Assembly: GCA_017448965.1 (NCBI GenBank)
Contig: JAFSKK010000020.1
Location: forward strand, 38,377 to 102,376
Source: Bacteroidaceae bacterium
Lineage (GTDB): Bacteria; Bacteroidota; Bacteroidia; Bacteroidales; Bacteroidaceae
Reading direction: 5' to 3'
Length of the DNA: 64,000 nt
Shown: piece after piece, positions 11,161 to 61,779 of the stretch
Layout of the letters: every line of letters starts with the position of its first letter
Numbering within the stretch: the first letter of the stretch is position 1
Translations under genes and position numbers: made by a program
Notes under the pieces: model-generated
Database searches by the model: none
Told to the model about the DNA's origin: nothing
What the model saw: the letters and a program-made list of their open reading frames with translations, nothing else

Positions 11161-11243
11161 CCTCCAAAACCGACCTCCCCGACATCGGTCGACCGATGTC
11201 GGGGAGGTCGGTTAACCGATGTCGGGGACATCGGTTGAGAGGT
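11161..11243. repeat. Palindromic array with 23-bp spacing
   Basis: Positions 11168-11213 form a perfect 46-bp palindrome centred between 11190 and 11191. Immediately after it, 11214-11236 is a second hairpin with 10-bp perfect arms and loop GGG. The segment ACCGATGTCGGGGA starts at 11192 and again at 11215, exactly 23 bp apart, and its complement starts at 11177. The core of 14 bp plus linker of 9 bp (GTCGGGGAG, GTCGGGGAC) is the same design seen in other intergenic arrays of this window. It lies between the divergent promoters of the TraB gene and panC. Confidence 0.85.
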
Positions 11244-11299
11244 TGTTGAAGTATGTATTTTGACACAGCCTCATGATGAATCTGAGTCGAAAGGGCTTA

Positions 11300-11365
11300 C
11301 GTTCGACAATAAAAGTAAAAACTTGGAGTTTTCCTTTGTATTGTTCTCACTTATCCGTACCTTTG
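11300..11365 (+). repeat. Diverged copy of the promoter-bearing palindromic element
   Basis: Read on the minus strand this matches the 68-bp elements upstream of the slyD-like gene and valS: the GGTACGGATAAGTGAG arm, the A-rich centre and the ATTGTCGAACG arm are all recognisable, but the centre has diverged and the outer end of the second arm is lost. Confidence 0.7.
11335..11365 (+). promoter_or_regulatory. Bacteroidetes promoter for panC
   Basis: TTTG (11335-11338), 19 bp, TACCTTTG (11358-11365), 24 bp before the panC start. The promoter lies inside the repeated palindromic element. Confidence 0.85.
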
Positions 11366-11389
11366 CACCACTTTTTCAAAAAGAAGGTA

Positions 11390-12259
11390 ATGGAAATCAT
11401 CAATTCAGTCAAGGAACTCAAGGCCAAGGTTTCTGCCCTGAGAAGTGATAACAAGACCGTCGGACTTGTGCCGACGATGGGTGCGCTCCATGCAGGTCAT
11501 GCATCGCTTGTGAGAAGAAGCGTCAACGAAAACGATGCCACTGTGGTGAGCGTGTTTGTCAATCCCACCCAATTCAACGACAAAAAGGATTTGCAGGCTT
11601 ATCCACGCACGTTGGAGGCCGATTGCGCACTGCTTCAGAGCATCGGTGCCGACTATGTGTTTGCCCCGTCGGTGGAGGAAGTATATCCAGAACCCGACAC
11701 GCGTTCGTTCTCCTACCCTCCCACCGACACGGTGATGGAAGGAGCTTTTCGTCCTGGACACTTCAATGGCGTGTGCCAGATTGTGAGCAAACTCTTCATG
11801 TTCGTGGAGCCCGACAAGGCCTACTTCGGAGAGAAGGACTTCCAGCAGATTGCTGTCATCAAGGCTATGGTGGCTGACTATGTGTCACGCGATGCCGAAT
11901 GGGCAAAACGCCTCGAAATCTGTCCCTGCCCCATCGTGCGTGAGGAAGACGGCCTCGCCCTCTCCAGCCGCAACACGCTGTTGGCAGAGAACGAAAGAGT
12001 CATTGCTCCCAACATCTACAAGGCGCTGAAAGCCAGCGTTGAGTTCAGCAGAAGTCATACGGTAGAAGAGACGCGTCAAATGGCTATCAATCAAATCAAT
12101 GCCGTAGAAGGGCTCGAAGTGCAGTATTACGACATCGTGAATGCCCTCACGCTCGAAAGTGTCTCCTCGTGGGACGATGCAGAACACATCCAGGGCTGCA
12201 TCACCGTCTTCTGTGGTGCCACCCCCATCCGACTCATCGACAATATCAACTACAAATAA
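11390..12259 (+). CDS. panC: Pantothenate synthetase
   Basis: Condenses pantoate and beta-alanine with ATP to give pantothenate. The start at 11390 ([10 protein letters not shown]) is set by the promoter 24 bp upstream; a frame extending back to 11273 would include the promoter. Motifs: [16 protein letters not shown] (the HIGH-like ATP site), [32 protein letters not shown] and ALSSRNTLL (KMSKS-like loop). At 289 residues it is normal length. panD starts 9 bp after its stop, so the two are one operon together with the phosphatase that follows. Confidence 0.96.
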
Positions 12260-12268
12260 AGAGCGTCT

Positions 12269-12622
12269 ATGCAGATAGAAGTGCTGAAATCGAAGCTGCA
12301 TTGTGTGAGGGTGACGGAAGCCAACCTCAACTACATGGGCAGCATCACCATCGACGAAGACCTGATGGATGCCGTCGGCATCATTGCCGGCGAACGCGTC
12401 TACATCGTCAACAACAACAACGGCGAACGATTCGACACCTACGTCATCAAGGGCGAACGCGGTAGCGGCTGCATCTGTCTGAACGGAGCTGCCGCCCGCA
12501 AGGTGCAGGTGGGCGACATCGTCATCATCATGGCCTATGCCACCATCACTCCCGAGGAAGCCCGCACCTTCCAACCCCAAATTGTCTTTCCCGACCAGAA
12601 CACGAATAAAATCGTCAGATAA
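12269..12622 (+). CDS. panD: Aspartate 1-decarboxylase
   Basis: Provides beta-alanine for PanC by decarboxylating aspartate. The proenzyme cuts itself between Gly24 and Ser25 (context NYMGSITID) to create the pyruvoyl group; both residues are at the positions known from E. coli. [20 protein letters not shown] (with the conserved Tyr) and [13 protein letters not shown] are intact. 117 residues, normal length. Its last base is the first base of the next start codon (TAATG), showing tight coupling to the phosphatase gene. Confidence 0.96.
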
Positions 12623-13092
12623 TGAACAAAATCCTCTTTATCTGTTTGGGCAATATCTGCCGTTCGCCGATGGCAGAAGCGGTGATGCGGAAACTGGTGA
12701 AGGAACGTGGTTTGGAAGCGAAGTATGAGATTGACTCTGCAGGACTCATCCGCTACCATGAAGGAGAAGGGGCTGACCCACGCATGAAGTTTCACGCCCA
12801 AAGGCACGGATATCTGCTGACACACATTTCACGCCCTGTCAGAGAGTTGGACTTCGAACTGTTCGACCTCATCGTGAGCATGGACGAAAGCAACTGGGAA
12901 CGACTGCACAGGCTGGCTCCATCTGTGGAAGCGGAAACCAAAATTGTGCGCATGACGGATTACTGCCGCACACACGTCATCGACCATGTGCCTGACCCCT
13001 ACTACGGCGGCGACCAAGGGTTTGAGAACGTGATTGAAATTTTGGAAGATGCTTGCCAGGGACTGCTGGAAGAACTGGAGAGCAAAGTTTAA
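12622..13092 (+). CDS. Low-molecular-weight protein-tyrosine phosphatase
   Basis: 156 residues. The P-loop ICLGNICRSP near the N-terminus supplies the nucleophilic Cys8 and Arg14, and DPYYGG near residue 130 carries the general-acid Asp. This is the arsenate-reductase-fold phosphatase family, often linked to tyrosine-kinase control of exopolysaccharide export. Here it is translationally coupled to panD by a one-base overlap, with no kinase nearby, so the substrate is unknown. A strong bidirectional terminator follows. Confidence 0.93.
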   Translation: MNKILFICLGNICRSPMAEAVMRKLVKERGLEAKYEIDSAGLIRYHEGEGADPRMKFHAQRHGYLLTHISRPVRELDFELFDLIVSMDESNWERLHRLAPSVEAETKIVRMTDYCRTHVIDHVPDPYYGGDQGFENVIEILEDACQGLLEELESKV

Positions 13093-13117
13093 GGTTTAGA
13101 GTTTAAGGTTTAAAGAT

Positions 13118-13164
13118 AAAAAGTCCGCTCAATCTGCATGATGCGCAGGTTGAGCGGACTTTTT
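13118..13164. terminator. Bidirectional terminator between the phosphatase and the porin gene
   Basis: AAAAAGTCCGCTCAA (13118-13132) pairs perfectly with TTGAGCGGACTTTTT (13150-13164). The stem has A and T runs on its two sides, so it can act for both convergent genes. Short GTTTAAG-type repeats precede it. Confidence 0.9.
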
Positions 13165-13187
13165 GTTTAACTTGTTAAAGTATCCGT

Positions 13188-14720
13188 TCAGAAGCGGAAA
13201 CCGGCTGTGGCCATGAGTTGTGAACGGTTGTTTTTGATGGACGTAGCTTTGAGATTCTCATCATCGAAGGCGTAGAAGTCACCCTTCTGTGCCTGATACT
13301 GCCAAGCAAGGTCAAAGTATCCACCCTTGTAGCGATAGCCAAGACCCACCGTGAAGCGGTTGGTGGCCCCCCAGTTGGTATAGTCGGTTTCGGTGTAGAT
13401 GCCGTCATATCCAATCGTGCGGAAAGCATTCTTCTTGAAAGGCGATGAAACGAAGTTGTAACCGGCACGGAGTGAGAGGGCTTCGATGGGCTTGAATTCG
13501 ACACCGACCTTCAGCGTGTGCTGTCCACGAAGAGTCTCCTGAGTAATCTTGTTCGTGTTGCGGAAATAATCGGATTCGTGGTTACCCACTTCGCTGTATT
13601 TGGCTGTGCTCAAATCCTGAAACTCATACTCTGCGCCGATGGCGAACTTGTTGCCGATGGTGTGGCCAATGCTGGCGCTAAACTTCCAGGGAGTACGGAA
13701 GTTATAGTCGTATTCCCCATTCTCGAGGTAGCCAATCCTATCGTCGTTGTAGTAGAGCGTTCCACCATTGGAATCAGTCAACCGATACCAGATGGGAGTG
13801 TGGACAGAGACACCAAAACGGAAGGGGCTGTCCTCAATAGGACGGCAGATAAAGCCAAGTTTCACATCGAAACCATCGCCATTGGTTTTGTACCAGTTGG
13901 TGAAGTCGTAACTATTGCCATTACCATCCACCTCACGATAGAACGACTCACGGTCATACTCGATATCGTACACGCCAACAGAACCACCAAAGAAAAACTT
14001 GTCGCTCACATTGAAAGACACATTGATGTCTGCCTGAATGTTGCCTCCAAAGGTCGCCTTCTCAAAATAGGCACTGTGCGCTCCGACGCCATTGTACAAG
14101 GCATTGTCATAATCGTCCCTGATTTTTTCTCCGTCAGCATCGACAGCATCCACCAACACCGTGTTATCCTCAGCCGTTGCCAGTTTCAGCATTGTGCCGA
14201 ACCATTCATCATAAGCATAACCTGCACGTCTTGCATCGCCCATCGCCCAATTGGCCATATCGGCAAGCTGATAAGTCTGACTGAAAACGCCATCCAGATA
14301 CTTCACGTCGGTCAACTGGTTGCTTAGGTAGTTGCGTTTCTTTTGGTAGTTCACGCCAAAGTTGACAAACTGAAGCCCCTGGCTGGAAGGGTTGTCCATA
14401 TCGAAGGCGATAATCACACCACCCTGATCGAGCGACATGCGCGCCTTGTCATGACCCATCGCACTCTTTGACGTGAAGAGTCCACTCAGAGACAAAGACA
14501 CGTCACTTTTGCGATACATACCTGTTCCCGCAGGGTTGGTGCTCATGACGCTGATGTCGCCTCCTAATGCACCGAGGGCACCACCCATCGCCACAAAACG
14601 TGCTGTTCCATTCAGGTCGCTGTTCACGATGTTTTGTGCATCGTAACTGTCTTGTGCGTATGCCACACTCGCCACACTGACCAGTGCGCCAAGCAAAAGA
14701 TATTTCCTATTTCTTTTCAT
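13188..14720 (-). CDS. OmpP1/FadL/TodX-family outer-membrane transport protein
   Basis: 510 residues with signal peptide MKRNRKYLLLGALVSVASVAYA, which sets the start at 14720 rather than the upstream in-frame ATG. After the signal come DAQNIVNSDLNGTARFVAMG, GALGALGGDISVMSTNPAGT and GMYRKSDVSLSLS, the usual N-terminal pattern of FadL-like barrels in Bacteroidetes. The rest is amphipathic strands ending QLMATAGFRF, with a terminal aromatic. These proteins form monomeric 14-strand barrels for hydrophobic substrates; the Bacteroidetes members have no known ligand. Confidence 0.82.
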   Translation of the reverse strand: MKRNRKYLLLGALVSVASVAYAQDSYDAQNIVNSDLNGTARFVAMGGALGALGGDISVMSTNPAGTGMYRKSDVSLSLSGLFTSKSAMGHDKARMSLDQGGVIIAFDMDNPSSQGLQFVNFGVNYQKKRNYLSNQLTDVKYLDGVFSQTYQLADMANWAMGDARRAGYAYDEWFGTMLKLATAEDNTVLVDAVDADGEKIRDDYDNALYNGVGAHSAYFEKATFGGNIQADINVSFNVSDKFFFGGSVGVYDIEYDRESFYREVDGNGNSYDFTNWYKTNGDGFDVKLGFICRPIEDSPFRFGVSVHTPIWYRLTDSNGGTLYYNDDRIGYLENGEYDYNFRTPWKFSASIGHTIGNKFAIGAEYEFQDLSTAKYSEVGNHESDYFRNTNKITQETLRGQHTLKVGVEFKPIEALSLRAGYNFVSSPFKKNAFRTIGYDGIYTETDYTNWGATNRFTVGLGYRYKGGYFDLAWQYQAQKGDFYAFDDENLKATSIKNNRSQLMATAGFRF

Positions 14721-14796
14721 GTGATATATGGTATTATAATAATAATGTGTAACACTCATAAGAGGCATGATATATTCTTCTTGTCATCTCAAGGCA

Positions 14797-16041
14797 CTAA
14801 CGTCGGCCACCACCGCCGCCGCCTCCACGGCTTCCACCACCGCCGCCGAAGCTACCGCCTCCACGACTGCCACCACCTCCACCGAAGCTACCGCCTCCGC
14901 CACCAAAACTGCCGGAAGAACTACGTGTGGAAGGTGTGTAAGATGGTGTGGAAGGAGCGGACTGCACAGTCGATGTGCGGCTGCTGCTGTTTTGGTTGCT
15001 GTAGGAACGTGACGGGCTATACACATTGGTGCCACGAACAGCGGTTCCACGCTGTACTGCACTGGTGCGTTCGCGGGTCATGCTGGGTGTACGCGCTCCC
15101 TCATTGGTTGAGCTGCCTGTGCGACCTGTTCGAGTGGCGGTGTAGTTAGTATAGGTACCACCACGTGTGCCGCGAACATCCTGCGCAGAAGTGCGGATTC
15201 CTTGTGAACCCACACGAGAACCTGATGCTATCGCATGGTCACCCGAAGCCATCGTACGGCTTCCTGATGCCAACGTGCGATTGCCTGCACCCATCACACG
15301 GCCACGTTCTCCACCTGTGCGACCGAGCGCACTTGTGCGTGTGGTATTGATGGAACGACCCAATGCGTTGGTGCGGAGGCGGTTGTTGGCAGCCATGTGA
15401 CCACGGGCAGAGTTGTACTGACGAGGTGCCACATTGTGGCGATACCCTCCATAGTGTACAGGATGGCTCCAACTTGGTCCCCATCCCCAATAAGTCCATG
15501 CATACGGATGATGCCAACCCCAGATGCTGCCATACCAGCAATCCCAAGGTCCCCATGCCCAACCGTATCCCCAGCCATAGTGCCAATACCACGGATCGTA
15601 GGGGTCATAAAGATAATCCCATGCACCCCATCCATAATAAAGATCCCAATAATATGGGCTGGTCAACGCATAGTAACGGGGGCTATGGAAACGAACAATA
15701 CGACGAGAGAAACGATAATCCAGTTCAGGGTCGTTCATGTCGTAGTAATCGCTTTCCACTGAATCGATGCGGGCAGACAATGAGTCGTCCAACACCGCAC
15801 CACCCGATGTCTGATACTCCCCCGTTTGTATGTAACGGCGGTTATAATCATCATCGGAACGCTGGTTGCTGTGATAATCCACGATGGAAGGTGGAGCCAC
15901 TGTTTCCGTCCTCGCACGCAACGAGGTTGATCTTTTCTGCGCTGCCTCTTTTGCCTTCTTGGATGAGGTGAAATACAGGTCATCCTGTGCCATTCCGAAC
16001 AAAGGAAGCAGAACGAGAGCCAATGTCAATAATCTTTTCAT
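14797..16041 (-). CDS. Secreted Trp/Tyr- and Gly-rich low-complexity protein
   Basis: I do not recognise a family beyond similar hypothetical proteins in Bacteroidales. After a signal peptide (MKRLLTLALVLLPLFGMAQ) comes a charged stretch (20-110). A segment of about 60 residues at 125-190 then has roughly half aromatic residues (for example YGWGAWDYLYDPYDPWYW), with His and Gly between them. A Ser/Thr/Arg-rich region follows with repeated ASGSR and ASGDH units (about 235-290), and the tail is made of SFGGGGG and SRGGG repeats ending GRR. No catalytic motif or membrane anchor is seen. The composition suggests a surface or matrix protein. The 76-bp gap to the porin gene and same orientation allow cotranscription. 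Confidence 0.6.
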   Translation of the reverse strand: MKRLLTLALVLLPLFGMAQDDLYFTSSKKAKEAAQKRSTSLRARTETVAPPSIVDYHSNQRSDDDYNRRYIQTGEYQTSGGAVLDDSLSARIDSVESDYYDMNDPELDYRFSRRIVRFHSPRYYALTSPYYWDLYYGWGAWDYLYDPYDPWYWHYGWGYGWAWGPWDCWYGSIWGWHHPYAWTYWGWGPSWSHPVHYGGYRHNVAPRQYNSARGHMAANNRLRTNALGRSINTTRTSALGRTGGERGRVMGAGNRTLASGSRTMASGDHAIASGSRVGSQGIRTSAQDVRGTRGGTYTNYTATRTGRTGSSTNEGARTPSMTRERTSAVQRGTAVRGTNVYSPSRSYSNQNSSSRTSTVQSAPSTPSYTPSTRSSSGSFGGGGGSFGGGGGSRGGGSFGGGGGSRGGGGGGGRR

Positions 16042-16129
16042 AATTTTATCTTATTTGTACAAATATTTTATAGGATAGTTTTCTCCATTGCAAAGGTCGT
16101 AATATTCTGTCAACGCACAGGTACTAAAA

Positions 16130-16156: not shown

Positions 16157-16176
16157 AAAAGTCACATGTGGCGATA

Positions 16177-28079: not shown

Positions 28080-28240
28080 CTGTCGTTGCTGTAATTACCT
28101 CCACGTCGCTACCGTAATTACGGTTACGCCACTACCGTAATTACGTTTACGACGTTGCCTCCGCGGGCTTTACGTCGTTGCCCTCGTGAGCCTTTCGACG
28201 CTACCCTCGCGAGCCTTACGACGTTGCCTCTAAAGCGCGG
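28080..28240. repeat. Seven-unit 23-bp tandem array
   Basis: Units begin at 28080, 28103, 28126, 28149, 28172, 28195 and 28218, exactly 23 bp apart. The left part of each is close to ACGACGTTGCC. The right part contains a core that differs between units but is usually self-complementary: GTAATTAC in the first three, CCGCGG in the fourth, CTCGTGAG and CTCGCGAG in the next two. Unit 28111-28124 is a perfect 14-bp palindrome. The array fills much of the 522-bp gap between uxaB and the TMEM43 gene; the rest of the gap holds only the two promoters and A-rich DNA. No reading frame is maintained. Confidence 0.9.
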
Positions 28241-28440: not shown

Positions 28441-29757
28441 ATGGCTTATCAAGAAAAAACAACCACGGGTTATGGTACCCGTGTGGGCAATTCGCTCAAG
28501 TCGGTTCTCATGGGATTTGTCATGATTATCGGCGCAACCATTCTGCTTTTCTGGAATGAGTTCAACTATGTGAAGCAGGACAACAAACTCGATGCTGTTC
28601 AGGAGGCTTGTGTTGACATGCCTAACCCTGAGAAGAAGAGCGCCGAATTTGAAGGCGAAGTGGTGTGCGCCACTGCTATGGCAACCACTGAGGAAGTGCT
28701 GACCGACCAGGAATTTGGCATCAGCGAGAACGCTATCGGCCTCATTCGCAAGGTAGAATACTACCAGTATGTTGAGCACTCTGAGTCAAAGTCAGAAGAC
28801 AAGCTCGGCGGCAAGGAGGAGACTACCACCACTTACACTTACAAACCAGAATGGGTGAGCAGCCCTGTGAACAGCGCTGACTTCAAGGATCCTGCCTACC
28901 AGAACAAGAACTTCACACTGGCTCAGGTGGAAGAGCAGAAGGTTTACGCCAAGAACGTATCTTTCGGCGCATACGTGCTGAGCGAGTCTCTCATCTCATC
29001 CATCAGCTCAAAAGAGGCTGTTGAACTCAACGTCAACCCACAGTTGCTGCAGTCAATCAACACTTCTGTTGCTAACACTTTCTTCGCTGTGAGAGGTGTT
29101 TCTGCCGGTGCTGCTGCACCTGCTCCTCAGCCTGCTGTTGCTGACAGCACTGCAGCTGCTGCCGACAGCGTTGCAACGAACAACAAGGTTGACCTCGAAT
29201 ACGTTCACCAGGCTGGCAACACACTCTACTACGGCCGCAGCGCAAACGCTCCTGAGATTGGCGACGTGCGCATCACTTTCGAGAAGGTGGTTCCTGCTAA
29301 GGTGACTATCATCGCACAGGTTGACGGCAACACCTTCAAGTCTTACAAGACCAAGTATGGCTCATACCAGACTCTCCGCATGGGCAAGATGACTTCAGAG
29401 GAAATCTTCCAGGATGACCACGAAAGCAACAGCATGTGGACTTGGATTCTCCGCATCGTCGGCATCCTGCTCGTTATCTCTGGTATCAAGAGCCTCTTCT
29501 CATTCGTAGAGACCCTGCTCAAGGTGGTTCCATTCCTCTCAAGCCTCTTCGCATTCGGTGTGGGCATCATCAGTACCATCGTCGGCCTTGTTTACTCACT
29601 CATTGTGATTGCTATCGCATGGGTGCTCGCACGTCCACTCGTGGGTATTCTCATCTTAGTCGTTGCAGGTCTCCTCATCTGGGTATTTGCCTTCAACGGT
29701 AAGAAGAAGCTGGCCGAACTCGCCAACAAAGGCAAGGCAGCCCCAGCAGCAGAATAA
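28441..29757 (+). CDS. TMEM43 (LUMA) family membrane protein
   Basis: 438 residues. Membrane helices lie near 22-40 (VLMGFVMIIGATILLFWNEF) and in a C-terminal cluster of about four (330-425). The large loop between them contains the TMEM43-like pattern GLIRKVEYYQYVEHS, KPEWVSSPVNSADF, YYGRSANAPEIGDVRITFE and GKMTSEEIFQ. The family is best known from the human inner-nuclear-membrane protein; bacterial members have no defined role. An Ala/Pro-rich insert (about 218-245) is specific. Codon use is strongly biased toward ctc, gct, aag and cgc, as in pgk, suggesting high expression. It has its own promoter and a terminator. Confidence 0.82.
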   Translation: MAYQEKTTTGYGTRVGNSLKSVLMGFVMIIGATILLFWNEFNYVKQDNKLDAVQEACVDMPNPEKKSAEFEGEVVCATAMATTEEVLTDQEFGISENAIGLIRKVEYYQYVEHSESKSEDKLGGKEETTTTYTYKPEWVSSPVNSADFKDPAYQNKNFTLAQVEEQKVYAKNVSFGAYVLSESLISSISSKEAVELNVNPQLLQSINTSVANTFFAVRGVSAGAAAPAPQPAVADSTAAAADSVATNNKVDLEYVHQAGNTLYYGRSANAPEIGDVRITFEKVVPAKVTIIAQVDGNTFKSYKTKYGSYQTLRMGKMTSEEIFQDDHESNSMWTWILRIVGILLVISGIKSLFSFVETLLKVVPFLSSLFAFGVGIISTIVGLVYSLIVIAIAWVLARPLVGILILVVAGLLIWVFAFNGKKKLAELANKGKAAPAAE

Positions 29758-31854: not shown

Positions 31855-31888
31855 AGTTTAGAGTTTAGAGTTTAAAGTTTAGAGACTC

Positions 31889-44666: not shown

Positions 44667-44786
44667 AAAGGTGGGGATTATTTTTGAATGGGCAAGATTG
44701 TTCACATACGGATTAGCGAAACCTTCACATCCGGCTTGGGGTTCACGCCACAAGCGGCTTGTCCCCGACTCCACAAAGGAAGTCGT

Positions 44787-44862
44787 TCATAACTTATGAA
44801 TATTTGTTCATAACTTATGAATAATTATCCGTAAGTTATGAATAATTGTCCATAACTTATGA
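44787..44862. repeat. Four-unit 21-bp palindromic array
   Basis: CATAACTTATG begins at 44789, 44810 and 44852, and the variant CGTAAGTTATG at 44831: exactly 21 bp apart. With flanking TT and AA it forms a 15-base odd palindrome in the first two units. Linkers are A/T-rich. It lies in the 628-bp gap between the DUF3990 module and the permease gene, directly before a degraded gene end. Confidence 0.88.
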
Positions 44863-44893
44863 ACAACTTCTGCGATTTGTAGCCTTTTGGAGG

Positions 44894-45067
44894 TTATTTG
44901 ATGAGAATCTTGCGACCACCTTTGATGTAGATGCCCTCATGAGTTGGACGGGTAAGTTTGCGACCCTGCAAGTTGTAGAGGGAACCATCTACTTCGTCGA
45001 GAAGGATAGCCTTAACGGAGGTTGTGCCATCTTGGTCAATTTTTGCGACTTTTTTACTTTGCGATAT
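44894..45067 (-). pseudogene. C-terminal remnant of a secreted Bacteroidales protein
   Basis: Reading the minus strand from just after an in-frame stop near 45070 gives about 55 residues ending GSLYNLQGRKLTRP, THEGIYIKGGRKILIK, stop. This is the C-terminal pattern (YNLxGxRV...GIYIxxGRKxxxK) found on many secreted Prevotella-type proteins, where it serves as an export or anchoring tail. There is no start codon and the upstream part is missing: the frame runs into a 23-bp tandem array. So this is a leftover of a larger gene. Confidence 0.75.
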
Positions 45068-45180
45068 CGCTTACACTTACTATCTGTGTTAAGTGTAAGT
45101 GGCAATCTGTATTAAGTGACAGTGGAAGCTCGTATTAAGTGACAGTGGAAACTCATATTAAGTGACAGTGGGTTTCTATA
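45066..45180. repeat. 23-bp tandem array next to the gene remnant
   Basis: TTAAGTG begins at 45089, 45112, 45135 and 45158, exactly 23 bp apart. Three units share TTAAGTGACAGTGG and the linker is close to AAnCTCnTA. A preceding partial unit (45066-45088) shares the linker part and contains the inverted sequence CTTACACTTA. The array abuts the broken end of the secreted-protein remnant and reaches within 35 bp of the permease stop. Confidence 0.88.
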
Positions 45181-45214: not shown

Positions 45215-46462
45215 CTATTCGTAGCGGATAGTTTCCGAAGGTTTGCCGATGCTGATGAGATGGGAACTGCCCCAAATGACAAGGGTGGAGAGGATGAGCG
45301 TGACGGCATTGATGGCAAGAATGAGGAGCCAGTCGAAGCGGATGGGTACAGAGTCGATGTAGTAGATGGTGGGGTCGAGCGAGATGAGACGGTAGTGCTG
45401 CTGCAACCAACAGAGGAGCAAGCCGACGAGGTTTCCCCAAAGAAGACCCTGACCCACGAGCATGACGCTGAAATGGATGAAGATTTTGCGAATGGTGGCG
45501 TTGGTGGCTCCCATCACTTTGAGGGTGCCTATCATGTTGATGCGTTCGAGCATGATAATGAGCAGGCCGCTCACGACGGTGAAGGCACTGACGAGCAGCA
45601 TGAGCACGAGGATCATGACAACGTTCATGTCGAGCACGGAGAGCCAGGCAAAGGTGTGGGCAGCGATTTCCTTGATGCTGAACACACCATAGGTGACACC
45701 GTTGCGATCGGTATCTTTGCAGAGGAGTTGCAGACGCTGAGCGAGAAGGTCAACATGGTCGAAGTCGCTGACGGTGATTTCCAATCCTGAGGACATTTCA
45801 TCATCCCATCCATTGAGTTTCCGCACGGTGTAGATGTCGGTGATGACGTAGTTGCGGTCGTAGTCGTTCATGTTGGTGGAGAAGATGCCAGCTATCTTGA
45901 ATCGACGTGCCCGCATGGCTTCTTCACCCATAAAGTAGGCGAAAATCTTGTCGCCCACATGTACACCAAGGTCGCCTGCCACTTTCTCGGAGATGAGCAG
46001 TTCGTTGGTAGCTTCCTTGGAGGTGAACGTGGGCATCTTTCCTGCTGTCAAGGCGTGACGGAAGAAGGTAAGGTCGTAGTCTTCCCCCACTCCTTTGAAG
46101 GTCAATCCACGAAAGTTCTCTTCTGTCTTCAGAATGCCTATCTTCGTGGCGAACTTCTGGATGTGCCCCGTTCCATGCACTTGTCTGACCCGACGAATCA
46201 GAGTGTCGTTGGTGAGCACGGGCATCATCTCGTAGTTCTGATTCTGTGTAAGGCTAAGCACCTGTATGTGGCTTCCGAAGCCAATGACTTTGGAACTGAC
46301 TTCGTGCTTGAAGCCCAACACCACAGCCAAACTCACCAGCATGACCGCCACTCCGATAGCCACACCAAGCATGGCTATACGAATAGCAGGACGGGAAAAT
46401 CGTTCCCCGTCCTTGGCCTTATCTGCATAAATGCGTTTTGCTATGAATAGTTCGAATCCCAA
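45215..46462 (-). CDS. LolC/LolE-like (FtsX-type) ABC transporter permease
   Basis: 415 residues. A membrane helix near 28-50 (AIRIAMLGVAIGVAVMLVSL), a large periplasmic domain, then three helices at about 270-300, 320-345 and 365-395, as in LolC/LolE, the inner-membrane parts of the lipoprotein-releasing complex. LERINMIGTLKVMGATNATI is the coupling-helix region conserved in the family. The start is a TTG at 46460-46462; no ATG exists before residue 31. The LolD-like ATPase is not adjacent. The 5' end adjoins a GTTGAAAATTGAAA repeat. Confidence 0.82.
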   Translation of the reverse strand: MGFELFIAKRIYADKAKDGERFSRPAIRIAMLGVAIGVAVMLVSLAVVLGFKHEVSSKVIGFGSHIQVLSLTQNQNYEMMPVLTNDTLIRRVRQVHGTGHIQKFATKIGILKTEENFRGLTFKGVGEDYDLTFFRHALTAGKMPTFTSKEATNELLISEKVAGDLGVHVGDKIFAYFMGEEAMRARRFKIAGIFSTNMNDYDRNYVITDIYTVRKLNGWDDEMSSGLEITVSDFDHVDLLAQRLQLLCKDTDRNGVTYGVFSIKEIAAHTFAWLSVLDMNVVMILVLMLLVSAFTVVSGLLIIMLERINMIGTLKVMGATNATIRKIFIHFSVMLVGQGLLWGNLVGLLLCWLQQHYRLISLDPTIYYIDSVPIRFDWLLILAINAVTLILSTLVIWGSSHLISIGKPSETIRYE

Positions 46463-46493
46463 CTTTCAATTTTCAACTTTCAATTTTCAACTT
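46460..46493. repeat. Short GTTGAAAATTGAAA direct repeat spanning a gene junction
   Basis: On the minus strand a 14-bp unit is present twice plus a partial third. It encodes the last residues of the aminotransferase (KLKIES) and its stop, and ends in the TTG start of the permease. Similar simple repeats occur near 13090, 31860, 47765 and 53910. Confidence 0.7.
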
Positions 46494-52307: not shown

Positions 52308-52385
52308 ATCGTCGCTAAGCCCACGAGGGTAACGACATAAGGCCCACGAGCATATCGACGTCAAGCTCACGGAGGAAACGACAGT
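52308..52385. repeat. 23-bp tandem array related to the one at 28 kb
   Basis: CACGAG begins at 52322 and 52345 and CACGGA at 52368, exactly 23 bp apart. The linkers AACGACATA, ATCGACGTC and AACGACAGT are the reverse complement of the TACGACGTT linkers of the array at 28080-28240, and the cores AAGCCCACGAGGGT and AGGCCCACGAGCAT match its CTCGTGAGCC-type units. So the same repeat family sits here in the opposite orientation. It lies in the 305-bp gap between the divergent sensor operon and aguB; the rest of the gap holds the two promoters. Confidence 0.87.
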
Positions 52386-53428: not shown

Positions 53429-53453
53429 GTTGTGTCAGTGTATGCGATTGATG

Positions 53454-53975
<522 letters not shown>

Positions 53976-53979
53976 AATG

Positions 53980-54354: not shown

Positions 54355-54366
54355 ACATTTTACATT

Positions 54367-56247: not shown

Positions 56248-56888
56248 ACAGCAACAGCCTCCTTTCCTTCGAGAGAAACGTCCTGTTCCTCCCCTTTCTT
56301 TCTCGCCTCCTGCAGAGACTTCAGAATCTTTTGTGAAGACTTGGAGAGGTTCTCCTCGTCCTCCATGAATCGCTTGATTTTACGTATCGCCTCCTGATAG
56401 CCAGGTATCTGCACCTTCTCAAAGAGGTTGACCTTCTGCGTGGTCTTTCTACGTGCATGGTCGAGAAGTCCCAACTTGGCAAGCACGAACTCACGTTCCA
56501 CAGCGGTCTTGGCCAATCCCTGCAACAGATTGATGCCGTCGAAGTACCACTTCGGGGCAGAGAACAGTCCGAAAGGCTTTACGTCCAGTTCGATGTTGTT
56601 CAGCACAGGCACACGTACACCTGCCACCTTCTTCACATCGAGCTGCACATCTTTCAGGCTGACCAGCGACGTGTCGAACTCACCCCAAAGGGCATACATC
56701 GACTCGTAGCCACCAATCTGCTGTTGCAGTTTCTTCTCCAAGGCTTCCGCTTCCTGCTTGCTTCGTTTCACCTCCAGACGCAGCGCCGTCTCCTTGTTCT
56801 TGATAATGGGCAAGGTGCGCTGTCGCATCTTGAGGTTCTTCTCAATCTGCTGAAGCGATGTCTTGTTATATTGAAACTTTATCGCCAT
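56244..56888 (-). CDS. ntpD: V-type ATP synthase subunit D (central shaft)
   Basis: 214 residues, mostly two long helices: ALRLEVKRSKQEAEALEKKL near the N-terminus and KVNLFEKVQIPGYQEAIRKI with FMEDEENLSKSSQKILK near the C-terminus, forming the rotor coiled coil inside the A3B3 head. The middle KKVAGVRVPVLNNIELDVKP is the conserved D-subunit turn. Three bp after subunit B and overlapping subunit I by four bases. Family length is about 210. Confidence 0.92.
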   Translation of the reverse strand: MAIKFQYNKTSLQQIEKNLKMRQRTLPIIKNKETALRLEVKRSKQEAEALEKKLQQQIGGYESMYALWGEFDTSLVSLKDVQLDVKKVAGVRVPVLNNIELDVKPFGLFSAPKWYFDGINLLQGLAKTAVEREFVLAKLGLLDHARRKTTQKVNLFEKVQIPGYQEAIRKIKRFMEDEENLSKSSQKILKSLQEARKKGEEQDVSLEGKEAVAV

Positions 56889-56891
56889 ATA

Positions 56892-58220
56892 TTATTTCCA
56901 ATAAATGTCGGTAAATTCTTTCTTGATGTTGACTTCCTCAAGCTTGAAGTACTTCTTGAAGAGTGACCACGTAACATCCAGCATTTCAGTCGTATCGAGA
57001 TTGACGTCAATAGCCAGCAACTTGCCTGCATACTCCTTGGCGAAGTCGAGGCAACGATTGTCGTAGTCGGTCAAGTCGAAACCATTCTCCAGCTTCGTCT
57101 TCGCATTGGCTGCATCGGAGTAAAGACGGATGGCAGCGTTCATCACCTGCGAGTGATCCTTACGGGTCTTCTTACCAGCCACGAGCTGCTTCAGACGAGA
57201 GAGTGAACGGAATGGGTCAACAATCACCTTACCCACATCGGAGTCACGACGCAGATAGAGCTGACCCTCTGTAATGTAACCCGTATTGTCAGGCACAGCA
57301 TGAGTGATGTCACCACCAGACAGCGTGGTCACAGCAATAATCGTGATGGAGCCACCACCTGCACTCTCGGGGAACTGTACAGCCTTCTCGTAAATCTTTG
57401 CCAAGTCTGAATAGAGCGAACCAGGCATAGAGTCCTTCGAAGGAATCTGGTCCATACGGTTCGACACGATGGAGAGCGAGTCGGCGTATGAAGTCATATC
57501 CGTCAGGAGCACCAGCACCGTCTCGTGCTTCTCCACAGCGAAGTACTCAGCAGCTGTCAATGCCATATCTGGCACAAGCAGACGCTCCACAGCAGGGTCT
57601 TCAGTGGTGTTCATGAAGGCAATGATACGGTCGAGCGCACCAGCATTCGAGAACGTGTTCTTGAAGAAGTAGTAGTCGTCGTTGGTCATACCCATACCGC
57701 CGAGGATGATTTTGTCCACCTTTGCACGGAGTGCCACCAATGCCATCACCTCGTTAAACGGTTGGTCAGGGTCAGCAAAGAATGGAATCTTCTGACCAGA
57801 CACCAAGGTGTTGTTCAGGTCGATACCTGCAATACCCGTTGCAATCAGTTCGGATGGCTGCTTACGACGCACAGGGTTCACGGATGGGCCGCCAATCTCC
57901 ACGTCCTTACCCTCAATCTCAGGACCTCCGTCGATAGGGTTTCCGTAGGCATTGAAGAAGCGTCCTGCCAGCTGCTCGCTCACCTTCAGCGATGGCGCCT
58001 TGCCGAGGAACACCACTTCCGCGTTGGTTGGGATGCCGCCCGTACCTTCAAACACCTGCAGGGTCACGTCGTCGCCTGCAATTTTCACTACCTGAGCCAG
58101 CTTGCCGTTGATGGTAGCAAGCTCATCATATCCCACTCCCTTCGCTTTGAGGGAGACAGTGGCCTTCGTTATCTGGCCAACCTTAGTGTATATCTTTTGA
58201 AAAGCTGTAGCCATAGTCAT
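56892..58220 (-). CDS. ntpB: V-type ATP synthase subunit B (regulatory)
   Basis: 442 residues, the non-catalytic head subunit. N-terminal beta-barrel (1-75), then IDGGPEIEGKDVEIGGPSVN, PSELIATGIAGIDLNNTLVS, FFADPDQPFNEVMALVALRA, LLTDMTSYADSLSIVSNRMD and SIPSKDSMPGSLYSDLAKIYE-like segments. As expected it lacks a P-loop. Two in-frame ATGs (58220 and 58214) are possible starts; the first abuts the subunit A stop directly. Confidence 0.95.
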   Translation of the reverse strand: MTMATAFQKIYTKVGQITKATVSLKAKGVGYDELATINGKLAQVVKIAGDDVTLQVFEGTGGIPTNAEVVFLGKAPSLKVSEQLAGRFFNAYGNPIDGGPEIEGKDVEIGGPSVNPVRRKQPSELIATGIAGIDLNNTLVSGQKIPFFADPDQPFNEVMALVALRAKVDKIILGGMGMTNDDYYFFKNTFSNAGALDRIIAFMNTTEDPAVERLLVPDMALTAAEYFAVEKHETVLVLLTDMTSYADSLSIVSNRMDQIPSKDSMPGSLYSDLAKIYEKAVQFPESAGGGSITIIAVTTLSGGDITHAVPDNTGYITEGQLYLRRDSDVGKVIVDPFRSLSRLKQLVAGKKTRKDHSQVMNAAIRLYSDAANAKTKLENGFDLTDYDNRCLDFAKEYAGKLLAIDVNLDTTEMLDVTWSLFKKYFKLEEVNIKKEFTDIYWK

Positions 58221-59963
58221 TTATGCGGCAAGCATTGCCTTGATTTGTGAAACAAAGTCGTTATATTGTTCGCTCTTGAACTGTGAGTAGTTCATCTGCT
58301 TGCAGAGGTTGATGAGCTTACGGAAGTATGCCACACAGTCCTCGAAGTGGTCGAACTGGAAGTCGGTCTCGCAGATTTCCGTCACCATATCGAGAATGGC
58401 CTCCTGACGCTCCAAAGAAGTCACGGCATCCACCTCATCGAAGGCATCCTGCTGGAGGAGCACGAAGTCGATGATTTCGGACTTCCAGAACACTACGTGG
58501 TAATCCACTGGCACACCGTCATCACCCAAGATGTTAATCTGCTCGGCAATCTCCTTACCACGCTGCATACGGGTCTTCAGGTTGAGCACCTTTGGAATCC
58601 ACTTGTCGTTGATGGTCTTGGCGATATAGTCAGCGAACTCAGGATATTCCAGATACTTAGAATAAGAATCGATAGGATTCACGGCTGGGTAGCGCTTCTT
58701 GTCGGCACGATCCTGCTCCAATCCGTAGAAGCAACGAGCCACCTTCTTGGTGTTCTCCGTCACAGGCTCCTTCAGGTTACCACCAGCAGGTGACACCGTT
58801 CCGATGAAGGTGATGGAACCAATCTCGCCGTTGTTCAGATAGACATATCCTGCACGTCCGTAGAAGTTTGAGATGAGGGCACCCAAGTCCATCGGGAATG
58901 CATCAGGACCAGGCAACTCCTCCATACGGTTCGACATCTCACGCAACGCCTGAGCCCAACGTGAAGTGGAGTCAGCCATCAGCAACACACGCAGACCCAT
59001 CGAACGATAGTACTCTGCCATCGTCATTGCCGTATAGACAGAGGCCTCACGGGCAGCCACAGGCATGTTCGACGTGTTGGCGATAATGATGGTACGCTCC
59101 ATCAACTTGCGACCCGTGTGGGGGTCATCCAATTCTGGAAACTCGGTGAAGATTTCCACCACCTCATTCGCACGTTCACCACAGGCTGCAATAATCACGA
59201 TGTCAGCCTCTGCCTGTTTCGAAATGGCATGCTGAAGCACAGTCTTACCCGTACCGAAAGGACCCGGGATGAAACCCGTACCACCTTCAACGATGGGGTT
59301 GAACGTATCAATCGTGCGCACACCCGTCTCCAACAATTTGAATGGACGTGGCTTTTCTTTATAGTTCGTCATGGCAAACTTCACAGGCCAGTGCTGCACC
59401 ATATCCACCTTCACCTCAGTGCCGTCCTCCTTCTCGAGTACAGCCACCACATCGTGAATCTTATACTTGCCAGCAGCCACGATGCTCTTCACCTTTGCCT
59501 TGCCCTCCATCTGGAAGGGAGCCATGATTTTGAGTTTCTGCGAGTTCTCTTCCACCTCGCCGAGCCATGCAGAGCTTTCCACTTCATCGCCCACTTTGGC
59601 GAGTGGCAAGAAGTCCCATTCACGCTCCTTGTCGAGGGGTTCCGTGTACTGACCACGCTTCAGGAAGACACCCTCCATCTTGTCGAGGTCGTTCTGCAAA
59701 CCGTCGTAGTTCTTTGACAACATGCCAGGACCCAACTGCACTTCAAGCATGTGTCCTGTAAATTCGGCTGGCGCACCAACCCTGAGTCCACGTGTCGATT
59801 CGAACACCTGAACATACACGTCACTGCCCACCACCTTGATGACCTCACTCATCAGCTTGTCGCCACCTGTCTCGATGTAGCAGATTTCACCCTGCTTCAC
59901 AGGACCATCGACAGCCAGTGTCACCATGTTGGCAATAACGCCACTAACAGTTCCTTTTGTCAT
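58221..59963 (-). CDS. ntpA: V-type ATP synthase subunit A (catalytic)
   Basis: 580 residues. The P-loop is GPFGTGKTVL, a Thr-for-Ser variant of the usual GPFGSGKT. The non-homologous insert (about 110-200) typical of A subunits is present, then ACGERANEVVEIFTEFPEL (catalytic Glu), SVYTAMTMAEYYRSMGLRVL, LLMADSTSRWAQALREMSNR, and GSITFIGTVSPAGGNLKEPV. Complete and of normal length. It follows the DUF2764 gene by 43 bp. Confidence 0.96.
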   Translation of the reverse strand: MTKGTVSGVIANMVTLAVDGPVKQGEICYIETGGDKLMSEVIKVVGSDVYVQVFESTRGLRVGAPAEFTGHMLEVQLGPGMLSKNYDGLQNDLDKMEGVFLKRGQYTEPLDKEREWDFLPLAKVGDEVESSAWLGEVEENSQKLKIMAPFQMEGKAKVKSIVAAGKYKIHDVVAVLEKEDGTEVKVDMVQHWPVKFAMTNYKEKPRPFKLLETGVRTIDTFNPIVEGGTGFIPGPFGTGKTVLQHAISKQAEADIVIIAACGERANEVVEIFTEFPELDDPHTGRKLMERTIIIANTSNMPVAAREASVYTAMTMAEYYRSMGLRVLLMADSTSRWAQALREMSNRMEELPGPDAFPMDLGALISNFYGRAGYVYLNNGEIGSITFIGTVSPAGGNLKEPVTENTKKVARCFYGLEQDRADKKRYPAVNPIDSYSKYLEYPEFADYIAKTINDKWIPKVLNLKTRMQRGKEIAEQINILGDDGVPVDYHVVFWKSEIIDFVLLQQDAFDEVDAVTSLERQEAILDMVTEICETDFQFDHFEDCVAYFRKLINLCKQMNYSQFKSEQYNDFVSQIKAMLAA

Positions 59964-60006
59964 ATCTTGTTCTTTGATTTTATTCCGATTATTCCGAATA
60001 CTCTGA

Positions 60007-60879
60007 TTATGCCATCAAGTCTCTCACATGGGGTGCTTTAGCCTGAAACTCTTCGGGCACTCTCGCCTCCCCTCGCAGATTCTCAATAATCTGCCGGAAG
60101 GTCTCCTTACCTTGTTCCACGTCCAGCTTGTCCCAACGTGCCAGCATGTCGAGTTTGCAAAGGTAGGCGAACACGGCCTCGATGGAGAACACATTGAAGA
60201 AAGTTTTCTCTTCCAGCCATAGCCACTTGAACGCATCCATCTTCTTCTCCTTCTCCACAGGATCCTCACACTCCACAATCTTCATCAAGTCTGCCACATA
60301 GTCATACTCGGCAGTCAAGTTGAAGTCTTTCGTGTTGTTCGTCAAGATCATCTCCGTCACCTCGTCCTCGCCCTGGATGTAGTCAGCCACATTCCAGCCG
60401 TTCTTGCGAGCCAAGAACGCCGTGAGGATGTTCGTGATGTCCAGATTCAGTTTGTACCACTGGCGCACCATCTTGTTCGGACACGTCTCGATGGCATACT
60501 GATAGAACTTGTAGAGCATGTCGTCCTCGGGGAAGTAACCCTCCTTATCCTTATTATATGCGTACTCGCGCGCGAACATACTCATGAAGGCAGGATAGCG
60601 ATGCACGTTGAAGTTCATTTCCTTTGCCGAGGTCATCAAATCGACATACTGTTCCATGGACAAGTTGCCGTTCTGCTCAATCTCCGCATTCGGATTCTTC
60701 AACAGCTTCACCAGGTTCGCACAGTCGTTCTTGAGGAAGAAGTAATAGAGCACCTTCTTGTCGCCGTCCGACAAGACCGCATCCAGCTCCTCTCTCATGT
60801 CGTCCATGCTGACCCCGCGCTTCGTATCCTCCAGCGTGATGTCAGGCAGACCCGCCATTAAACAATAGTAATTTCCCAT
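60007..60879 (-). CDS. DUF2764 protein in the V-ATPase operon (subunit C-like position)
   Basis: 290 residues, helical and acidic. MGNYYCLMAGLPDITLED at the N-terminus, DDMREELDAVLSDGDKKVLY, DDMLYKFYQYAIETCPNKMV, LDITNILTAFLARKNGWNVA and FSIEAVFAYLCKLDMLARWD. The gene takes the place where subunit C (the d-like funnel linking shaft to ring) lies in other V-type operons, and its helices with NILTAFLARKNG recall that family (inference). DUF2764 is known to accompany these operons in Bacteroidetes. Four bp after subunit E. Confidence 0.8.
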   Translation of the reverse strand: MGNYYCLMAGLPDITLEDTKRGVSMDDMREELDAVLSDGDKKVLYYFFLKNDCANLVKLLKNPNAEIEQNGNLSMEQYVDLMTSAKEMNFNVHRYPAFMSMFAREYAYNKDKEGYFPEDDMLYKFYQYAIETCPNKMVRQWYKLNLDITNILTAFLARKNGWNVADYIQGEDEVTEMILTNNTKDFNLTAEYDYVADLMKIVECEDPVEKEKKMDAFKWLWLEEKTFFNVFSIEAVFAYLCKLDMLARWDKLDVEQGKETFRQIIENLRGEARVPEEFQAKAPHVRDLMA

Positions 60880-60882
60880 ACC

Positions 60883-61473
60883 TTAGAAAATCATTTCCAC
60901 CAACTGTGGACGCAAGAAATTCTTAAAATACTCCTCAAACTCTGCTTCGCCGAAGTTCACCTTGTAAGAGCCATCGGCAGGAGCCACCGTGAACAGCGTC
61001 TTCTTGCCGTTCACCTGCTCAATCTTCACGCCCTTGTCCAGCAACGCCTTTGCCTTCTTTGCAAACAGCACTTTCAGACTTTGGGCATCCTCTGTACCGA
61101 TGACGATGTCCTCGTTGGCACCCCATTTCTCAGCCAGCTTCAGCATGAACTCATTCATGAAATCCTTGTTGCCAGCGATGTCGGCAGCAGCAGCCTTCAC
61201 CACCTTGTCACCTACCACATCGGTGATCTCGCTCTTCAGCGCATTCAGCGCCTGAGCAGCATACATCTTGATTTCACTCTTCATGTTCTCCTCCATGCCC
61301 TGGGTGTTCTTCTTGGCAGCCGCCTCAATTTCCTCAGCTTGCGCCTTTGCGTCAGCAACAATCTGAGCAGCCTTCTCATTCGCCGCAGCGATGATTTTCT
61401 CGGCCTCGGCATTGCCCTTCTCCACTCCATCCTTCAGGAGTTTCTCTGTCAATTCTTGAATTTTATTTTCCAT
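60883..61473 (-). CDS. ntpE: V-type ATP synthase subunit E (peripheral stalk)
   Basis: 196 residues. The first 70 form a long Ala/Glu/Lys helix (KGNAEAEKIIAAANEKAAQI, VADAKAQAEEIEAAAKK) that makes the peripheral stalk. The C-terminal globular part contains LAEKWGANEDIVIGTEDAQS and ends FEEYFKNFLRPQLVEMIF, the usual E-subunit closing. It is the first gene of the operon. No consensus TAnnTTTG promoter is visible upstream, but an inverted repeat lies 24 bp before the start. Partner subunits F and G are not found. Confidence 0.9.
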   Translation of the reverse strand: MENKIQELTEKLLKDGVEKGNAEAEKIIAAANEKAAQIVADAKAQAEEIEAAAKKNTQGMEENMKSEIKMYAAQALNALKSEITDVVGDKVVKAAAADIAGNKDFMNEFMLKLAEKWGANEDIVIGTEDAQSLKVLFAKKAKALLDKGVKIEQVNGKKTLFTVAPADGSYKVNFGEAEFEEYFKNFLRPQLVEMIF

Positions 61474-61496
61474 ATTATTGTTGATGTTTGTACATA

Positions 61497-61518
61497 TTTC
61501 GGTACAAATTTAGACAAA
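61497..61518. promoter_or_regulatory. Inverted repeat upstream of the V-ATPase operon
   Basis: TTTGTAC (61497-61503) and GTACAAA (61512-61518) are perfect 7-bp arms around eight bases, 24 bp upstream of the subunit E start. Possible operator or leader hairpin for the whole operon; no regulator is identifiable. Confidence 0.45.
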
Positions 61519-61687
61519 AAAATCCACATACTCCCACACCCTCCCGATTATTTCACAAAAAAAGAATCAAAAAGAACCATTTCACTCCCCATTTATCATT
61601 TTATCATCTGTTATTTCATCTACAACTTATCTTTTAGCGCAGCCCCATTTTCTTTTGCTTCGAGAGGGCATCGACGAGGCACTAATA

Positions 61688-61779
61688 GTTACAAATGTAA
61701 CACCACCAGTGTTACAAATATAACATCTCAAGTGTTACAAATGTAACACTGCCGTTGTTACATTTGTAACACATAAACA
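61688..61779. repeat. Four-unit 23-bp array of a GTTACAAATGTAAC palindrome
   Basis: The 14-bp palindrome begins at 61688, 61711 (one base changed), 61734 and 61757 (complementary centre ATT), exactly 23 bp apart, with 9-bp linkers that differ (ACCACCAGT, ATCTCAAGT, ACTGCCGTT). A partial copy GTTACAAATC begins at 61790, out of phase. It lies in the 536-bp gap between the V-ATPase operon and the thioredoxin-like gene. Nothing else is recognisable in that gap apart from the inverted repeat near 61500. Confidence 0.9.

Follow-up and report, generated by a model that had tools for sequence, protein, structure and literature searches.

Tandem arrays with a constant 23-bp spacing hold different core sequences at shared slots in different Bacteroidaceae species

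A window of 64,000 nucleotides from the genome of a Bacteroidaceae bacterium (assembly GCA_017448965.1, contig JAFSKK010000020.1, positions 38,377 to 102,376 of the forward strand) contains six short tandem arrays with units of 23 or 21 bp. These arrays and their relatives were analyzed in this genome (G000; 3.03 Mb, 74 contigs, 85.6% complete), in the sister genome G036, its nearest relative, and in further genomes. We found that the same slot, with the same spacing, holds different cores in different species. A preliminary description, made from the letters of the window alone, had proposed one mechanism behind the unlike array sequences, and this proposal is supported by the shared slots. 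The arrays fall into families, termed F1 to F6 here. Their copies are dispersed, F1 units are exactly spaced, two families have a common frame, the number of units varies, loci are gained and lost, loci are shared between distant species, and the core types, or dialects, are nearly pure per genome. We give a probability of about one half to the explanation that each array is a copy of a short, non-autonomous interspersed element. Several families of such elements would exist, similar to miniature inverted-repeat transposable elements (MITEs) or bacterial interspersed mosaic elements (BIMEs) and built much like the BrickBuilt element, with cores that are read by a putative trans-acting factor.

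Shared slots in distant species carry different cores

The F1 unit consists of a 21-bp dyad, ACCGAYRTC-CCC-GAYRTCGGT, and a 2-bp spacer. Units of this kind were found inside the gene for glycerate kinase (PF02595), which was present in 30 of 46 genomes. Fifteen loci were parsed, and ten of them carried three in-frame units with 23-bp spacing and one of four core types. The core was CCC in G000 and G013, GAC in G036, G003, G010, G011, G016 and G025, GTG-CCC-CAC in G007 and CGRTGTG-GGG-CACAYCG in G017. In the parsed loci of G024, G021, G005, G004 and G043 the insert was not present. The gene tree, calculated with the insert removed, did not unite the two CCC genomes. Here, G013 grouped with G003 and G024 (0.989), and with G024 alone only at 0.575. 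The core type was the majority type of the genome in seven of the eight genomes in which both patterns were counted, the exception being G003.

A second in-frame slot in conserved coding sequence was occupied by three units in both G000 and G007, with CCC cores in the former and GTG-CCC-CAC cores in the latter (open frames of 359 and 407 amino acids). The GSCFA gene contained an in-frame F1-type array in G002, G003, G010, G011 and G016. Further slots lie beside a ypfJ-like gene, an aldo-keto reductase gene and an rdgB-like gene, all named by sequence reading. The slot upstream of an HU-HIG gene was occupied by GAC units in G000, G036 and G011 and by GTG-CCC-CAC units in G007 and G016. Past the stop of one further gene, a GTG-CCC-CAC array in G007 stood against F5-like and F3 repeats in G000. 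At the aldo-keto reductase slot (slot D), one framed CCC unit in G024 was compared with three in G000, and the gap was exactly 46 bp. Thus, place and spacing can persist while the core and the unit number change. Among ten loci compared from G007 and G017, shared slots were resolved for three (L393, L395, L397); L396 and its counterpart in G003 both carry the third core type. Arrays share place and spacing even in species whose protein at window position 28441 is only 53-73% identical to the one encoded here.

A conserved neighbor that might serve as the factor did not emerge from these slots. The shared neighbors were the glycerate kinase, GSCFA and HU-HIG genes and the ypfJ-like, aldo-keto reductase, rdgB-like and Lrp-like genes, the latter four assigned from their sequence. 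The Lrp-like regulator gene is among the neighbors of one F1 slot (G000:C68, L297) in three genomes.

Switched dialects in the sister genomes

Aligned parts of G000 and G036 share about 90% identity. Their divergence is a mosaic, with blocks of 97-100% identity in this background as a sign of recent exchange. For 15 F1 arrays of G000, both flanks were located in G036 material. Seven of these arrays had the other dialect in all comparable units, and four had the same dialect together with at least 97% identity on at least one side. The remaining arrays were mixed and one unit shorter (one), absent in G036 (two) or not alignable (one). Starting from G036, two more pairs were obtained, one absent in G000 and one that could not be resolved. 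The arrays at C18:11265 and at window position 11161 are absent from the corresponding places in G036, and the L277 locus is absent from G000.

Flank identity of the seven switched pairs ranged from 74 to 98%, with 74-75% for the glycerate kinase pair and 98.4% on one side of the pair at C67:35491, and some switched pairs are not the product of simple vertical descent. Five of these pairs, with 15 units, were compared base by base. The center was changed at its middle base in 15 of 15 units, together with one neighboring base in each, and nine arm positions never differed. An exact one-unit difference of 23 bp was observed between G000 and G036 at C24:64343. At C24:16690, the substitutions between both genomes match the neighboring unit, as judged by eye.

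As a separate observation, a HipBA-like gene pair (named by sequence reading) is located between two GAC-dialect F1 arrays in G000 (C21:27650-28980) and G036 (C20). Its flanks are about 97-98% alike in both genomes versus an average of about 90%, and a GTG-CCC-CAC array follows.

Dialects are nearly pure per genome

The F1 loci for the dialect counts were gathered by F1 searches and from samples. Among 132 loosely matched units of G000 (either strand), the central trinucleotide was CCC in 111 and GAC in 13. The sister genome had 45 GAC and eight CCC centers in 56 such units. The same was seen for arrays with at least two units: 36 of the 40 in G000 were CCC-only, three GAC-only and one mixed, and of the 18 in G036, 15 were GAC-only and three CCC-only. 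Among the matches listed, whole-genome units were GAC in 21/26 cases in G036 and CCC in 29/33 cases in G013, 3/3 in G019 and 2/2 in G032. The share of GAC was 11/11 in G002, 9/9 in G003, 13/13 in G010, 22/24 in G011, 8/8 in G016 and 5/5 in G025. Avoidance of restriction sites was considered as a cause of the switch and dropped, because GTCGAC still occurs in spacers of G000 (by eye).

The families differ in their distribution. The F1 core pattern occurred 91 times in G000, 26 times in G036 and not at all in 24 genomes of other families. Of the 61 genomes searched, 14 contained F1, and these 14 belong to the same genus; one unit was present in G007 and none in G017. A pattern covering two further GTG-NNN-CAC types, CGRYGTGSSSCACRYCG, was searched in 37 genomes, with G036 and G025 outside this search. 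It yielded 85 units in G007, 55 in G017, 24 in G003, six in G010 and 0-2 in the other 33 genomes (0 in G000 and G013). The F3 pattern (forward, reverse) was counted 38 and 44 times in G000, 3 and 4 times in G036, 11 and 11 times in G010 and 9 and 10 times in G011, and it was missing in G013 and G002. For the F2 pattern the counts were 55 (G000), 43 (G036), 41 (G013), 19 (G010), 12 (G011), 5 (G007) and 1 (G016), with 0 in G002, G003 and G017.

Arrays are built as elements with exact spacing

The array families recur around the G000 genome. The period is 23 bp in F1, F2, F4 and F5, 21 bp in F3 and 24 bp in F6, a family outside the window. An F2 unit is GTTACANNTGTAAC plus 9 bp, an F3 unit TTCATAASTTATGAA plus 6 bp and an F6 unit CGGTSTGASTCASACCG plus 7 bp. 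Elements contain one to six cores, often three or four, and dyads of about 12-21 bp are found in F1, F2, F3, F4 and F6. The spacing of F1 is strict: all 82 intervals between successive units (loosely matched) measured exactly 23 bp in G000, and so did 33 of 34 in G036, the other interval being 46 bp. In F3, copies at unlinked loci reproduce the whole four-unit element in either orientation, including its inverted ends and the variants specific to single units. These shared variants and ends indicate that the arrays spread as elements.

In 783 kb of G000, three complete F1 elements were identified. Each is 97 bp long and has inverted TTCCACNNCCTC ends (up to one mismatch). The same length was found for one element whose 23-bp units are unrelated. 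F6 has the same frame as F1, and both can be framed by inverted TTCCACWRCCTC. Among the places listed, the starts of facing frame motifs were 85 bp apart at several F1 loci and 87 bp apart at several F6 loci, and longer distances of 110 and 131 bp were also seen. Exact TTCCACNNCCTC was present 52 times in 1.18 Mb versus about 2.4 expected from composition. Of these motifs, 28 are within 60 bp of a detected array, and one single-unit framed F6 element was recognized among the remaining ones. As a control, TTCCACWRCCTC was counted genome-wide in 12 genomes against a reversed control motif. The counts (motif/control) were 105/5 in G000, 68/9 in G036, 23/6 in G025, 20/8 in G016 and 17/3 in G003. 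In G002, G010, G011 and G017, there were 6-12 motifs versus 2-7 control matches. Terminal inverted repeats are thus established for F1, where the three 97-bp elements have them, and by eye for F3; F2, F4 and F5 stand outside this result. A target-site duplication was not apparent by eye at any of the three complete F1 elements, and the empty sites are not clean.

The anatomy suggested a hairpin or cloverleaf of RNA or DNA, and this candidate was rejected since the F1 arms do not covary and since, by eye, variable bases in one frame arm often mismatch those in the other. The YR positions of the F1 arms vary without covarying as base pairs. Of 100 units, 13 had fully complementary arms (19.9 would be expected under independence), as had 5 of 47 (14.3 expected), and compensatory base pairs that keep the palindrome are not supported for F1, the family tested. 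Base pairing is therefore not what is conserved. Judged from F1 only, a sequence-specific reader of double-stranded DNA fits the arms better than a hairpin.

Periodicity compared with chance, and the arrays of the window

Genome-wide periodicity was taken from samples of 1.18 Mb of G000 and 0.57 Mb of G036. With coding sequence included, a lag scan of the G000 sample detected 68 arrays at lags 19-29 (37 at 23, 15 at 21 and 9 at 24). In G036, 36 arrays were detected (15 at 23, 8 at 21 and 6 at 19). In the non-coding DNA of the G000 sample (70,181 bp), the number of islands was 22 for lag 23 and 13 for lag 21, and 20 Altschul-Erickson shuffles, which preserve dinucleotides, gave at most one island at any lag. 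Non-coding DNA of G036 gave 13 and 6 islands, respectively, and none in the shuffles. We also compared loci around panC, of which 80 named ones were kept from 586 relatives, titled nearly all Bacteroidales. Non-coding counts in these loci were highest at lag 22 (19), followed by lags 21 (17) and 23 (9), again with 0 in the shuffles. A cultured commensal, Bacteroides oleiciplenus YIT 12058, has a 22-bp array in locus L223. Periods of 21-23 bp are thus common across the order, and 23 is prominent in G000. The autocorrelation against shuffled controls that the preliminary description had called for thus reveals an excess of 21-24-bp periodicity in G000 and its relatives, and the arrays of the window are far beyond chance. 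Repeats of 7 bp add to the lags 14, 21, 28, 35 and 42. Such heptamer tandem repeats form a second repeat class near gene boundaries, at window positions 13084-13115, 31855-31884, 46460-46493 and 53910-53965. A heptamer array at G036:C13:6641 sits in an interval that is 64 bp longer than its counterpart in G000.

All six arrays of the window were recovered at the places and with the periods first described, and the rows of Tandem Repeats Finder agree with sequence reading (Table 1). The copy number per 21-23-bp row was 2.3-4.0, and one of the seven rows reached 4.

Table 1. Tandem arrays of the window, in window positions
Array	Family	Strand	Units	Tandem Repeats Finder (period; positions)
11169..11237	F1	no strand	three 23-bp units; core type CCGAYRTC-CCC-GAYRTCGG + 2-bp spacer	23; 11181-11236
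28080..28240	F4	no strand	about seven 23-bp units	23; 28091-28144 and 28147-28228
44780..44870	F3	no strand	four 21-bp units around TTCATAASTTATGAA; inverted ends GAAGTCGTTCATAA/TTATGAACAACTTC	21; 44788-44863
45066..45180	F5	minus-strand motif	23-bp units anchored by CTTCCACTG	23; 45082-45171
52308..52385	F4-like	no strand	about three 23-bp units (CCCACGAGC...TAACGACATAAG); resemblance to 28080 by eye	23; 52317-52383
61688..61779	F2	no strand	four 23-bp units, GTTACANNTGTAAC-like + 9-bp linker	23; 61688-61772

In the F1 array, the center is inverted (GGG) in the second and third units, and degenerate frame arms surround the array at about 11150-11168 and 11237-11251. A search of this array against its own genome gave 76 match rows, in which both strands of one place are counted; one row has 96% identity over 128 bp at G000:C37:5751. 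In the F4 array at 28080, the palindromic core shifts inside the array from GTAATTAC to CTCGCGAG, with the linker and the 23-bp register unbroken. This array is also present in G036 (L010); by eye, it is missing upstream of the corresponding gene in L012-L015, L017, L019, L023 and L025. Further F4-like loci exist elsewhere in G000. The F5 anchor resembles the frame motif of the F1 and F6 elements, and F5 is without a clear dyad (by eye).

Several statements of the preliminary description had to be narrowed. A division of the unit into 14 + 9 bp holds for the family at 61688, and the families at 11161 and 44787 divide into 21 + 2 and about 15 + 6 bp. The arrays are not fully independent in sequence, as those at 28080 and 52308 appear, by eye, to belong to a single family. 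That none encodes protein seems correct for the window, but F1 arrays are in frame in the glycerate kinase gene, the GSCFA gene and one other gene of G000 or its relatives. A mechanically called open reading frame on the minus strand overlaps the array at 11161, and its predicted true start is probably upstream of the edge of the array. The placement between divergent genes applies to four of the six window arrays and did not extend to the wider 783-kb sample. There, 41 mostly non-coding arrays comprised 9 divergent, 23 co-directional and 5 convergent ones and 4 at contig ends, with 16.8 kb of divergent, 54.6 kb of co-directional and 13.6 kb of convergent gap DNA available. A role as insulators of divergent promoters, hinted at by the window, was not upheld by this sample.

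Other features were noted near the arrays. A fragment on the minus strand at 44896-45040, located between the F3 and F5 arrays, resembles a type IX secretion C-terminal signal, on sequence reading only. An abiF RNA (RF03085, 40.7 bits) at 61812-61847 (+) adjoins the F2 array; it was the sole match to Rfam in the window at gathering thresholds, and the arrays themselves had no match. Elsewhere in G000, a 28-bp family with AGCGAAGCGATAACTTC forms about two units at C13:44650-44726 and C5:7894-7966.

Proposed explanation and alternatives

In the proposed explanation, the cores would be double-stranded recognition sites for a putative trans-acting factor for DNA binding or mobility. This factor might occupy successive units about two helical turns apart. 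A distance of 23 bp corresponds to about 2.2 helical turns, which places neighboring units on nearly the same face, and a putative helical-phase binding is compatible with the arrays. The dialect would then track the specificity of the factor through element turnover, conversion or selection. A dialect could change by turnover or conversion, by import of a locus, or by selection for an altered reader, and the data do not separate these routes. Locus transfer between species accounts for part of the pattern.

A number of observations weigh against this explanation. A reader factor was not found. Exchange between species is strong: the glycerate kinase gene of G036 is closer to those of G010 and G011 than to that of G000, and the units of slot D are identical in G036, G016 and G003. 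Some switches may therefore reflect the import of a locus and not a change in place. At slot D, the array differs between G000 and G036 though one flank is 98.4% identical. The dialects have exceptions, with two dialects in G003 and in G010 and minority arrays of the other dialect in both G000 and G036, and the compared F1 loci were picked by F1 searches, not randomly. Variable arm positions were retained, where the center had switched, in 41 of 60 cases versus a mean of 32.5, which is only suggestive, 4 of 44 derangements being as high or higher. The frame motif was not enriched over its control in some carriers (18/16 in G013, 4/8 in G007 and 5/9 in G019). A parent transposon with exact frame motifs 500-2600 bp apart was not found in 1.18 of the 3.03 Mb.

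The arrays might also be purely selfish MITE-like repeats, mobilized by a host transposase, homogenized by recombination or conversion and spread by transfer of segments, without a host function or a co-evolving reader. Loci that are present in only one of the sister genomes, four pairs that keep the same dialect where at least one side is at least 97% identical, the roughly tenfold excess of F3 in G000 over G036 and the precedent of BrickBuilt are all consistent with it. We nevertheless consider it unlikely as a full account, since place and spacing are the same across species with a window-28441 protein of 53-73% identity and the glycerate kinase core follows the genome, not the gene tree, in seven of eight genomes.

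A more specific form of a reader system is doubtful. Here, paralogous DNA-binding proteins, with HU-HIG proteins of the HU/IHF superfamily as leading candidates, would each read one core on 21-24-bp arrays, and a change in specificity would lead to cores being rewritten within the divergence of sister species, with place and spacing kept. HU-HIG (PF18291) matches numbered 3-23 per genome in 37 genomes of the genus versus 1-6 in 22 of the 24 other families examined, the remaining two having 12 and 17; weak matches may be ordinary HU. Among the positions listed, an array lies at most 600 bp upstream of an HU-HIG gene eight times in seven of nine genomes versus 0.11 expected, and G000 (HU-HIG gene at C21:27157-27522) and G036 likewise have such an array. 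Most of these arrays are probably one ancestral slot and thus not independent cases. Moreover, this slot carries the minority GAC dialect in G000, and the other HU-HIG genes checked, three in G000 and two in G036, are without an upstream array; both observations weigh against this system.

Local minisatellites, arising by slippage at each locus with a period set by a property of polymerase or repair, are improbable. Unit number does change by exactly one unit at C24:64343 and by two units between G024 and G000 at slot D, and the substitutions at C24:16690 match the neighboring unit. Whole elements with unit-specific variants and ends at unlinked loci largely contradict a local origin. For the same reason, templated duplication in its simple form, as the preliminary description had suggested, is not favored.

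Elements acting at the level of RNA, such as terminators, small RNAs or RNA sponges, are similarly hard to reconcile with the data. Most cores are inverted repeats, one F1 array (C37:5775) lies within a longer terminator-like inverted repeat by eye, and small RNAs are discussed in the available part of Subirana and Messeguer (PMC8161180). Against this, the arrays lack an Rfam match, gene ends are not markedly preferred and arm complementarity is not above chance.

Repetitive extragenic palindromic (REP) sequences, BIMEs or REPINs (REP doublets forming hairpins), mobilized as single-strand hairpins by a REP-associated tyrosine transposase (RAYT) of the Y1 type, resemble the arrays by analogy as palindromic extragenic repeats in tandem with families per genome, but this alternative is very improbable and a RAYT is unlikely for G000, as the F1 arms do not covary and a search of 11 carriers (G036 and G025 lying outside it) gave PF01797 matches in G003, G016, G019 and G024 and none in G000 (85.6% complete), G002, G007, G010, G011, G013 and G017.

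Relation to known systems

The following comparisons draw on parts of the cited articles. The preliminary description had called the arrays an apparently undescribed class. This does not hold, as constant-size arrays of 20-23 nt (PMC8161180) and BrickBuilt (PMC4596501) are published. BrickBuilt of Porphyromonas gingivalis (Klein et al. 2015) is a MITE that holds 23-nt tandem repeats and has inverted ends (PMC4596501). It belongs to the same order and is likewise a short, dispersed interspersed element. Its loci are mostly conserved between strains, and it was found in P. gingivalis and P. gulae (PMC4596501). Direct 23-nt repeats without spacers between them, a trait of BrickBuilt, are also seen in F1; F2, F4 and F5 have the 23-bp period as well, and F3 and F6 do not. 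BrickBuilt differs in having a leader and a tail with IS5-like ends of the GAGACCTTTGCA type, whereas the F1 and F6 ends are TTCCACWRCCTC, a comparison made with the published table and not by alignment (PMC4596501). Indels of 0-6% are reported within BrickBuilt elements, in contrast to the few, exactly spaced units and several core families described here (PMC4596501). Finally, BrickBuilt is always intergenic according to the text at hand, but some of our arrays are in frame in genes (PMC4596501).

Subirana and Messeguer (2021) described repeats of 20-23 nt with constant size and variable sequence in many bacterial groups, pointed to two helical turns and proposed a polymerizing protein or small RNAs (PMC8161180). 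Such constant-period, variable-sequence arrays have been called enigmatic, a fixed size with free sequence being without explanation. The present arrays share the constant period, several unlike families per genome, species specificity and a mostly non-coding location. A further likeness is that conserved short motifs often occur together with their reverse in the same repeat, as stated there for a 52-nt class (PMC8161180). The Bacillus scan of that study used a threshold of at least four repeats, which most rows of the window do not reach, and many arrays of the present kind would thus escape it (PMC8161180). The portion of that article that was available contains no description of cores exchanged at shared slots.

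Other systems are similar in single traits. Rickettsia palindromic elements (RPEs) are likewise short palindromic repeats in frame within metabolic genes, but they are about 150 bp long, and the sections at hand do not mention a 23-bp period (PMC10969869). REPINs and RAYTs share dispersed palindromic repeats and a proposed co-evolution with a trans-acting enzyme; they differ in anatomy, and a RAYT was not detected in seven of eleven carriers here (PMC3116915). The DNA uptake sequence (DUS) of Neisseriaceae, as presented in the part of the source used, also has species-specific dialects of a dispersed motif, but it is a single short motif for transformation, present in thousands of copies and not as spaced arrays at shared slots (PMC3630211).

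In the literature searched, mainly open-access, no account was found of core exchange at shared slots of distant species, including the in-frame glycerate kinase arrays. One three-unit slot of 23-bp spacing with species-dependent cores turns the problem into a testable question of what reads the core and how it is replaced genome-wide. The sister genomes with opposite dialects offer matched natural pairs for the search for such a factor. In summary, the kind of array is already known and, within the literature searched, the exchange of cores at shared slots with the 23-bp spacing kept is the new part, a behavior that resembles the concerted evolution of dispersed bacterial repeats.

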